Shown piece after piece: positions 35,790 through 38,980 of a stretch of 46,638 nucleotides of DNA. The stretch is from an uncultured Bacillota bacterium. GTDB lineage: Bacteria; Bacillota_I; Bacilli_A; RF39; UBA660. The stretch covers positions 1 to 46,638 of the forward strand of contig CANSAJ010000007.1 in the NCBI GenBank assembly GCA_947644695.1, given 5' to 3'. Position 1 is the stretch's first letter. Every line of letters starts with the position of its first letter. Below the pieces are notes generated by a model, which was not told where the DNA came from, did not search any database, and saw only the letters and a program-made list of their open reading frames with translations. The position numbers and the translations under genes were made by a program.

Positions 35790-35815
35790 AAAAAGTACTT
35801 CTTATGAGAAATACT
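35790..35815 (-). terminator. Terminator overlapping the gpmI stop
   Basis: AGTATTTCT-CATA-AGAAGTACT on the minus strand (nine pairs with one G-T), followed by TTTTTATTTT. The hairpin begins inside the stop codon at 35814. Confidence 0.8.
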
Positions 35816-37325
35816 AATTAATTTGATCTTTTATTATTAAACTTTCTCCTGTCATTTTGTCAGGTTTTTTTATTTCATAAATATCTATTATTGTAGGTAC
35901 TATATCTTTTAGTGAACCTTCACTTTTTAATCTATAGTCAGTATTACAAATAATAAATGGTACTTTACTAGTAGTGTGACTTGTTATTGGCTCGCCTTCT
36001 TTATTAAGCATTTTTTCAGCATTACCATGGTCTGCGGTGATGATTAATTCATAAAAGTGTTCTTTTGCTTTTTCAAATATTTTACCTAGACAAAAGTCAC
36101 ATATTTCAATTGCATCAACTGTAGCTTGAAAATTTCCTGTATGTCCTACCATGTCTGGATTAGCAAAATTGATTAATATAAAATCATAATCATTTTCTAA
36201 TGAATGCAGGACTGTTTCAGTTACTTCACCTACACTCATTTCAGGTTTAGAATCATATGTTGGTACTCCAGGGCTAGGTATTAATATTTTTTCTATTTTT
36301 TTACTATTTAATTCTTTCATTCCATCAAAGAAATAAGTTACATGAGCATATTTTTCAGTTTCTGCAATTCTTGCTTGTGTAAAATCTAATCCATCTATAT
36401 ATTCTCCAAATGTTTGTGTTGGTCTTTCTATATCAAAAGCATATTCTACATCTTCATGAATATTAAATAGTGAATATAGTTTTAAACCTTTAAATTCTTT
36501 TGTCTCAAACATTTTAAATGTTTTATTTGTGAAAGTTTCAATTAATTCTTTCATTCTTTCTGATCTAAAGTTTATAAATAAGATTGCATCATTATCACTT
36601 ATAAGATTACCTTTAGTTATTATACTTGGATTTATAAATTCATCTGTTATTCCTCTTTTATAATGTTCATTAAAACAAACTTCATATCTTGGAAATTCAT
36701 TTCCTTTTCCATACACCATTGCATCGTATGTTTTTTTTATTCTTTCCCAGCGATTATCTCTATCCATTGCATAGTATCTTCCACTTAGTGTAACTAATTC
36801 TCCTAGTTTTAGTTTTTTAGCTCTTTCCATAAAATCATTTATAAATGTTGCTCCACTTGTTGGGCTAGTGTCTCTTCCATCTGTGATAAAATGAAAGCAA
36901 ACTTTTTTTACTTTTTTTAGTTTTGCCATTGCAAGGGCAGCATAAAAATGATTTGCGCTTGAATGAACTCCTCCATTTGATAATAAACCTACTAAATGCA
37001 AAGTACTGTCTTTTTCTTTTACATAGTTAATCATATTATCTAATACTTCGTTTTCAAAGAATTCTTTCGTTTTTATTTTTTCATTAATATATGTAAGAGG
37101 CTGAGGATTTATCCTTCCACTTCCTATTGTCATATGTCCAACTTCACTATTTCCGACTTGACCTTTTGGTAGGCCTACTTCTGTACCACTTGCTTCTAAT
37201 TCTGTATTTGGAAATACAGTCATTAATTTATCTAATACAGGTGTATGAGCTGTTTTTACGGCATTACCGTATTCGTTATTATTTATTCCAAAACCGTCCA
37301 AAATGAGTAATATTACTTTTTTCAT
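35814..37325 (-). CDS. gpmI: Phosphoglycerate mutase, cofactor-independent
   Basis: 503 residues from the ATG after AGGTGA; a GTG four codons earlier lies in that site. Interconverts 3- and 2-phosphoglycerate using two manganese ions. Metal and catalytic residues visible: D10 and S60 (GNSEVGHMTIGSGR), DGRDTSPTSG (about 148-157), GRYYAMDRDNRWER (about 186-199), and the later HTGN and DHGNAEKM. Complete; the alkaline-phosphatase-like and phosphotransferase domains are both there. Downstream of spo0A on the same strand, closing the glycolytic block. Confidence 0.97.
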   Translation of the reverse strand: MKKVILLILDGFGINNNEYGNAVKTAHTPVLDKLMTVFPNTELEASGTEVGLPKGQVGNSEVGHMTIGSGRINPQPLTYINEKIKTKEFFENEVLDNMINYVKEKDSTLHLVGLLSNGGVHSSANHFYAALAMAKLKKVKKVCFHFITDGRDTSPTSGATFINDFMERAKKLKLGELVTLSGRYYAMDRDNRWERIKKTYDAMVYGKGNEFPRYEVCFNEHYKRGITDEFINPSIITKGNLISDNDAILFINFRSERMKELIETFTNKTFKMFETKEFKGLKLYSLFNIHEDVEYAFDIERPTQTFGEYIDGLDFTQARIAETEKYAHVTYFFDGMKELNSKKIEKILIPSPGVPTYDSKPEMSVGEVTETVLHSLENDYDFILINFANPDMVGHTGNFQATVDAIEICDFCLGKIFEKAKEHFYELIITADHGNAEKMLNKEGEPITSHTTSKVPFIICNTDYRLKSEGSLKDIVPTIIDIYEIKKPDKMTGESLIIKDQIN

Positions 37326-37377
37326 TTTCCGTTTCACCTAGATATATTCTAGCATATTATTTTTTTATTTTAAAGTA

Positions 37378-38142
37378 TTAGTGTACTTTAAGCATTTCCA
37401 TCCTTAATTTATCTGCTATAGTTACAATAAATTCTGAGTTAGTAGGTTTAGCTTTATCTATATCTACAGAGTGACCAAAGATTTCTTCCATCAAGTCCCA
37501 ATCTCCTCGATTCCAACTTACTTCAATAGCATGACGTATAGCACGTTCTACTCTTGTGACACTTGTATCATACCTTATGCCTATTTCTGGATATAACTCT
37601 TTAGTGATTCCTCCAATTAAAGATGGATTATCATATACTAAATTAATAGCATCTCTTATATATTGATATCCTTTAATGTGTGAAGGTATTCCTAATTCAT
37701 GAAGTATTTTTGTTATAGATATTTGAATGTTATTTTCATGTAAGTTAAGTATTCTATTTTCTTTGTTTTTATTGCTTGTGACATCTAATACTCTTTTTTC
37801 TAATTCTTTTAAATCAAATGGCTTTAATACAAAATATTTTACACCATACTCGCTTATATTTCTTATTGTTTCTTGTTCATTATAACTTGTTACTACTATA
37901 ATATTTATAGGAAGTTTATTTTCTTTTATTTTTTCTAAAACATATAATCCATCTTTTCTTGGCATTATTAGATCTAGTAATACAGCATCTATGTCTTTAT
38001 AATTTTGCTCTATCTTTTCCCAAGCTTCTTCTCCATCATAAGCAGTATCTGTTACTTCTATTTGCTTGTTATCGCTAAAATATTCTTTTAGCATATCTAC
38101 CATAGCCTTATTATCGTCTACTAACATTATTCTCTTTTTCAT
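37378..38142 (-). CDS. spo0A: Sporulation master regulator Spo0A
   Basis: 254 residues. Receiver domain (about 1-120) with the acidic pocket D9, D10, phosphoacceptor D57 (VLLDLIMP) and K107 (LKPFD). DNA-binding domain (about 140-250) with ITKILHELGIPSHIKGYQYI, NPSLIGGITKELYP and the recognition helix SVTRVERAIRHAIE (194-207), followed by NRGDWDLMEEIFG. All typical of genuine Spo0A. It binds TGTCGAA (0A boxes); an array of such boxes is about 80-110 bases upstream. It lies between tpiA and gpmI, an unusual place (normally next to spoIVB). AAGGAGA site. Confidence 0.97.
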   Translation of the reverse strand: MKKRIMLVDDNKAMVDMLKEYFSDNKQIEVTDTAYDGEEAWEKIEQNYKDIDAVLLDLIMPRKDGLYVLEKIKENKLPINIIVVTSYNEQETIRNISEYGVKYFVLKPFDLKELEKRVLDVTSNKNKENRILNLHENNIQISITKILHELGIPSHIKGYQYIRDAINLVYDNPSLIGGITKELYPEIGIRYDTSVTRVERAIRHAIEVSWNRGDWDLMEEIFGHSVDIDKAKPTNSEFIVTIADKLRMEMLKVH

Positions 38143-38221
38143 ATTGTTTTTCTCCTTTATTTTACAAATTAATTATAATATAGACATTATAGAATACTCT
38201 AGAGTTTAAATAATCTAGTTT

Positions 38222-38258
38222 TGTCTATAAATGTCGTTTTTTGTCGTTAAATGTCGAA
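38222..38258. promoter_or_regulatory. Phased tandem array of 0A-box-like repeats
   Basis: On the plus strand TGTC(G/T) begins at 38222, 38232, 38242 and 38252, exactly 10 bases apart; the last is TGTCGAAAG, a full 0A box, two others are TGTCG. Seven-base boxes with three-base gaps are the layout Spo0A dimers bind. The array is in the spo0A upstream region. Confidence 0.65.
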
Positions 38259-38273
38259 AGATTTTTTTTGACA

Positions 38274-38306
38274 GTAAAAAAACAAGAGAATTTTTAAAGT
38301 TTCTCT
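38274..38306 (-). terminator. Possible weak terminator after tpiA
   Basis: AGAGAA (38285-38290) pairs with TTCTCT (38301-38306), with a T-run on the minus strand at 38274-38282. A short, weak stem; partial read-through into spo0A is plausible. Confidence 0.5.
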
Positions 38307-38980
38307 ATTATTTTTTTTATATTTTCTATATCTATACTATATTTTCCTATTAAAACTCCATCTGTAATTTCTAGTACTTCTTTTATGTTATTTATATTTA
38401 TAGAGCCACCATATAAAAATGGTATAGTCTTGTTAAAGTGTTTTTCTATATAATCATTTATTAAAGTTTTGGCGAATAATATTTCTTTTAAGTTTACTAT
38501 TTCTCCCTCAATTTTGCTTGATGGTTCATAAGTTATTAATAAATTTTCTAAAGATTTTTGGTCTAAACCTTTTAAATAATATTTTAATTCTTTTTTCAAT
38601 ATCTTATAATTTTCGTCATGTCCTACGCATAGAATGGTTTTAAATCCTGAATTTAAGCTTCTATATAATTTATCTTTTATTTCTTCATATGTATCTAATT
38701 TTAAGTTTAGTCTTTCTGGATGACCTACAAGTGTATATTTTATATTTAGGCTTTTTAATATTTCTAAGCTTGTTTCTCCAGTATATGCGCCTAAATTATA
38801 GCTATAAAAGTTTTGAGAACCAATTGTTATTTTACTATTTTTAAATAAAGAAAGATAAGCTATGTTGGGCATTAGTATCAGATCAATGTTTTTTATATCT
38901 AGTTTTTCAAGTTCTTCTTTGTAAGTGATAATTTCTTCATATTTAAGATAACTTTTATGGTTAAGTATTATTTTTTTCAC
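38294..38980 (-). CDS. tpiA: Divergent triose-phosphate isomerase
   Basis: 228 residues, about 20 fewer than usual, from a GTG after GGAGG. Interconverts dihydroxyacetone phosphate and glyceraldehyde 3-phosphate. The catalytic residues are present: N7 and K9 (LNHKSY), H87 (VGHPERL, where GHSERR is usual) and E152 (YEPSSKIEGE, where YEPVWAIGTG is usual). The phosphate-gripping loop 6 is therefore altered, and the late GGxxxxxN region is YGGSININN. Start is coupled to the end of pgk. Activity is expected but the substrate loop differs. Confidence 0.88.
   Translation of the reverse strand: MKKIILNHKSYLKYEEIITYKEELEKLDIKNIDLILMPNIAYLSLFKNSKITIGSQNFYSYNLGAYTGETSLEILKSLNIKYTLVGHPERLNLKLDTYEEIKDKLYRSLNSGFKTILCVGHDENYKILKKELKYYLKGLDQKSLENLLITYEPSSKIEGEIVNLKEILFAKTLINDYIEKHFNKTIPFLYGGSININNIKEVLEITDGVLIGKYSIDIENIKKIIEKL

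Follow-up and report, generated by a model that had tools for sequence, protein, structure and literature searches.

Phased Spo0A-type boxes upstream of spo0A, recurring before comK and an orphan kinase gene in an order of uncultured gut Bacilli

The window analysed here, the whole 46,638-nucleotide stretch of contig CANSAJ010000007.1, carries on its minus strand a spo0A gene encoding a protein of 254 aa (37378..38142; TIGR02875, 268.8 bits, above the curated cut-off of 200 bits). On the same strand, it is flanked upstream by tpiA (38294..38980; triose-phosphate isomerase models) and downstream by gpmI (35814..37337; TIGR01307, 603 bits). The promoter parts of spo0A, again on the minus strand, comprise a ribosome-binding site AAAGGAG (38152..38158), a -10 hexamer TATAAT (38172..38177) at a distance conserved in the order and, upstream of the latter, a second TATAAT-like hexamer (38186..38191) found in the genus and its near relatives only. 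A consensus promoter and terminator scan gave nothing over background, and a search for a sigma-H-type spo0A promoter (-35 AGGA, -10 GAAT) retrieved no AGGA-N-GAAT pair, AGGA occurring solely in the ribosome-binding site. The end of tpiA forms a terminator-like hairpin with a U-run (38285..38306, minus strand; -8.2 kcal/mol, z -2.1). A preliminary description of this DNA considered the place of spo0A between tpiA and gpmI unusual, and proposed that glycolytic read-through and Spo0A control could be tied together. Yet, among relatives, spo0A has tpiA immediately upstream in 52 of 79 cases and gpmI downstream of it in 31 of 72 cases, so this gene order is normal in the lineage. Since, in addition, the hairpin stands between tpiA and the array of boxes described below, we reject the coupling by read-through as unsupported.

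The sequence TGTC is present on the plus strand at 38222, 38232, 38242 and 38252, exactly in the 10-bp steps initially described. On the spo0A (minus) strand, the same repeats read as four GACA boxes (38258-38222), 80-116 bp 5' of the spo0A ATG. These are box 1, TTCGACA (38252..38258; TGTCGAA on the plus strand), box 2, AACGACA (38242..38248), box 3, AACGACA (38232..38238), and box 4, ATAGACA (38222..38228), separated by TTT, AAA and TTT, respectively; after a further AAA come CTAGATT, CTCTAG, TATAAT, AAAGGAG and the ATG, in that order. Box 1 is a perfect 7-bp core, confirming the one full 0A box of the preliminary description, while boxes 2 and 3 deviate from TGTCGAA by two mismatches each. 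The bases that Spo0A reportedly contacts, G2, C4 and G5 of TGTCGAA (PMC3485338), are all present in boxes 1-3, and box 4 has two of the three. When the 151-bp spo0A-tpiA intergenic region was shuffled 20,000 times with dinucleotides preserved, no shuffle contained an equally spaced run of three or more GACA (steps of 8-12 bp allowed). A search of the window that tolerated up to three mismatches matched the ladder at this place alone, in three overlapping registers. In the 1.25-Mb genome, GACA-N6-GACA-N6-GACA is found solely at spo0A (twice, overlapping) and upstream of comK, with 0 matches for the reversed control; other GACA pairs in the genome are nearly all intragenic. Overall, the four boxes look like operators rather than chance occurrences.

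The conservation of this arrangement was investigated in 82 spo0A upstream regions, from 80 public-genome relatives (61-87% protein identity) and genus members, the genomes used being nearly all metagenome assemblies. GACA motifs were spaced by 10 bp in 39 regions, by 20 bp in 18 and by 30 bp in 13, and any other distance occurred in at most four; these counts, like those that follow, are uncorrected for the tree and overstate the number of events, because upstream regions of related species are non-independent. TCGACA was on the coding strand in 75/82 regions and the reverse TGTCGAA in 2/82, and TTCGACA pairs (up to two mismatches) 10 bp apart were present in 45/82, against a shuffle mean of 1.5. 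Among 48 regions anchored on the last, promoter-proximal box and the TAG after it, that box lies 47-48 nt from TATAAT in 45, though the sequence between varies. Every genus member with an upstream region has three or four exact boxes, so that a loss of the repeats in close relatives, named in the preliminary description as a refutation, was not observed. The columns homologous to boxes 1, 2 and 3 are kept in the genus, where these three upstream boxes are full; in the next-nearest relatives (L042-L050) they have partly decayed. Exact-box runs of three or four are confined to the genus, most other relatives having one or two boxes in their spo0A promoters. We thus take the ladder to be real and its full length, judging from these regions, to be a trait of the genus and its near neighbours. 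Box 4 is the weakest match in the window, yet by position it is homologous to the one good box, TTCGACA, that distant relatives have. That this box, at the fixed promoter distance, is without one contacted base in the genus counts against reading the array as a Spo0A operator. Nevertheless, the four boxes, the 10-base phasing kept in relatives and the rarity of the opposite orientation support the earlier suggestion of a phased Spo0A-type operator longer than the usual pair of boxes.

The same pattern recurs at two other loci. A search of the genome with TTCGACA-N3-TTCGACA-N3-TTCGACA, allowing up to three mismatches, gave two matches, one before comK and one before the gene of an orphan histidine kinase, and ladders before further genes of this genome were not found. 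Across the genus, all 16 matches of the degenerate three-box search belong to comK, the orphan kinase or spo0A, while its reversed control yielded 0 in nine genomes. The comK ladder consists of three phased 0A boxes directly before the gene (G000:C5:33335-33361; L122, L233; order-wide L178-L206) and ends 11 nt from an extended -10. The comK homologue itself (PF06338, E 7.5e-37) sits between dnaN and recF, and ComK was found in 184/193 genomes of the order. ComEC (PF03772), present in 92/97 genomes of the order, was not found in this genome (94% complete), which may reflect an assembly gap or a real loss. The second ladder (G000:C33:8003-8029; L175, L242; order-wide L243-L271) precedes a KinB-like kinase with HisKA and HATPase domains and no response-regulator neighbour; the gene lies behind a membrane-anchored EIIB-like ORF, and a CotZ-like spore-coat gene is close by. 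In-phase TTCGACA pairs 10 bp apart (up to two mismatches) are present in 34/35 kinase promoters and, in a set from which four loci were left out, in 22/34 comK promoters (shuffle means 0.6 each), the TTCGACA-N3-TTCGACA pair being nearly universal in the kinase promoters of the order. In 32/35 kinase and 22/34 comK promoters, 11 nt separate a box from a -10-like hexamer downstream of it. With promoter positions reckoned from predicted -10 hexamers, the boxes of both promoters cover about -50 to -24 and overlap the -35 region next to the extended -10.

Looser, GACA-only ladder matches were also observed in two genus members. One (L119, G004:C3:58626) falls inside a repeat array made of TTCGGACAC-type short repeats and TCGGCTAC variants; a putative DNA-binding ORF lies nearby, and the array is perhaps a mobile-element end. 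The other (L118, G003:C3:915) is located between two genes for uncharacterised surface-type proteins.

Between box 4 and the -10 of spo0A lies an inverted repeat, CTAGA-N9-CTCTAG (38199..38218, minus strand; centre at about -43), which is conserved across the order. Its CTAGA arm keeps the 10-bp phase of the boxes and may serve as a degenerate fifth half-site; the CTCTAG partner occupies about -39 to -34. Copies of CTAGA...CTCTAG elsewhere in the genus were discounted, as they correspond to coding sequence or terminator stems. Box 4 together with AAACTAG makes up a composite element, the 11-mer GACAAAACTAG (38215..38225, minus strand), which in 1.2 Mb of fetched DNA (loci partly overlapping) is confined to spo0A and sigF promoters. 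In seven genus members the sigF-operon promoters carry TTCGACAAAACTAG, in the orientation opposite to that of the spo0A element. The operon has the composition STAS-sigF-spoVAC-spoVAD (G000:C34, L282; also L283, L284 and L212-L220). The spoIIA/sigF locus is a classical Spo0A target. The shared composite suggests a link between the spo0A element and this target and, given also the 10-bp phase of CTAG(A), that CTAG(A) is part of the putative Spo0A operator. The composite was not seen at spoIIGA, and a GACA pair before that gene (G000 C42:6106) was not counted, being part of a terminator stem. Because the sigF operon has no spoIIAB, and a search of nine genus genomes detected no SpoIIE, sigF must be activated differently than in B. 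subtilis.

The DNA-binding domain of the encoded Spo0A matches the structures 1lq1 (E 2e-42) and 1fc3, aligned over 113 residues, and its recognition helix, RVERAIRHAIEV, is identical to that of solved Spo0A. In 1lq1, a tandem pair of Spo0A domains occupies two boxes spaced by 10 bp. On these grounds, we put forward that the array is an autoregulatory operator of spo0A, with Spo0A as both binder and regulator, at a probability of about 0.82. Spo0A~P would line up head to tail, presumably in a cooperative manner, along one helix face, occupying four half-sites (perhaps five) in 10-bp steps. The ladder spans about -57 to -93 relative to the predicted start of a promoter of the sigma-A type, which has the conserved TATAAT and lacks any sigma-H-like element. 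Spo0A would also act on the ladders before comK and the orphan KinB-like kinase gene, and on the composite box before the sigF operon. Given that the spacing is kept in relatives and recurs before the kinase gene and comK, the ladder probably marks a small self-reinforcing circuit linking sporulation and DNA uptake. In such a circuit the kinase would phosphorylate Spo0A, Spo0A~P would feed back on spo0A itself and on the kinase gene, and the outputs would be comK (competence) and sigF (sporulation).

The upstream position of the boxes suggests activation of spo0A, possibly with repression at high levels, and we lean towards net activation of spo0A. In the opposite scenario Spo0A acts as a repressor, the ladder limiting spo0A transcription, either by negative autoregulation or when Spo0A~P reaches high levels, and the comK and kinase ladders blocking RNA polymerase. 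Activation is not assured, because modelling in B. subtilis found the Spo0A boxes at spo0A to be mainly repressive (PMC12090719). The repressor scenario also has in its favour that high Spo0A~P represses comK in B. subtilis (PMC3297582) and that the comK and kinase boxes lie where sigma would sit; at these two promoters Spo0A could activate or repress. However, no spo0A box reaches downstream of -57, a location typical of activators, and ladders before both kinase and spo0A fit feedback amplification; we consider the repressor scenario the less likely one.

Three other explanations dispense with Spo0A as the binder. Response regulators of the OmpR class have operators built of repeats arranged head to tail, roughly one turn of the helix from each other, and several further response regulators are encoded in this genome; a regulator of that class (WalR, PhoP or similar) could thus occupy the ladder as a direct-repeat site. 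Yet the half-site matches the Spo0A core TTCGACA exactly, contacted bases included, the spacing is 10 rather than 11, and the genes concerned are spo0A, comK, the orphan kinase and sigF, so that we consider such a binder improbable. ComK, whose gene is self-regulating in B. subtilis, might bind the ladder that stands before comK, but ComK is known to bind A/T boxes (AAAAN5TTTT), not CGACA, and ladders were not found before other genes of the genome; we regard this as very improbable. Finally, close relatives have much intergenic sequence in common, and the repeats might reflect shared ancestry without function, or chance in A/T-rich DNA. This is refuted by the shuffle counts and the genome-wide rarity, and the ladder is still present in relatives with 60-70% protein identity, whose DNA around it has diverged, leaving the idea scarcely credible.

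Under the Spo0A reading, we tentatively propose, as a possibility short of an even chance, that the core Spo0A circuit of this genome-reduced order of gut Bacilli is a four-gene unit of spo0A, the orphan kinase, comK and sigF, with helically phased operators and a head-to-tail Spo0A oligomer longer than a dimer. If so, competence and sporulation would be outputs of one switch. We found no literature on phased Spo0A ladders, or on comK or competence control in these uncultured gut Bacilli, in a search mainly of freely accessible papers. A conserved, readable operator would make the Spo0A regulon predictable across hundreds of genomes without cultures, and it predicts a common switch for sporulation and DNA uptake. 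Furthermore, natural arrays in which the same promoter carries between one and four phased boxes offer a ready series for tests of Spo0A oligomerisation on DNA.

Comparison with known systems places the ladder in context. The 1lq1 and 1fc3 structures share the recognition helix, with two molecules on two boxes in the structure as opposed to four or five half-sites here. For the order RF39, to which we assign this lineage on the strength of its gene content and the records of its relatives, retention of spo0A and reduced or absent spoIIAB and spoIIE have been described, with competence not mentioned (PMC10868615), in agreement with our findings on spoIIAB and SpoIIE. In Clostridioides difficile, whose Spo0A has a closely related domain and likewise requires the contacted bases G2, C4 and G5, a consensus 0A box is reported about 75 bp upstream of the spo0A start codon, with high-affinity binding and multiple shifted species at the spo0A/sigH boxes (PMC3485338); that search targeted single perfect boxes, and the relevant passages describe neither a four-box ladder nor a connection to comK. 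In B. subtilis, Spo0A~P autoregulates spo0A directly through several 0A boxes (Pv/Ps, boxes 0A1-0A4), with attraction between occupied boxes (PMC12090719), and several such boxes likewise precede spo0A here. In contrast, the B. subtilis boxes are placed between sigma-A and sigma-H promoters, one of them over the Ps -10, whereas here a single contiguous 10-bp ladder lies upstream of a TATAAT promoter without a sigma-H-like element. Similarly, Spo0A~P binds B. subtilis comK directly (sites A1-A3 and R1-R2), first activating and later repressing it (PMC3297582), and direct Spo0A control of comK is also predicted here; the two promoters differ in that ours has three phased boxes ending 11 nt from the -10, before a comK gene located between dnaN and recF.
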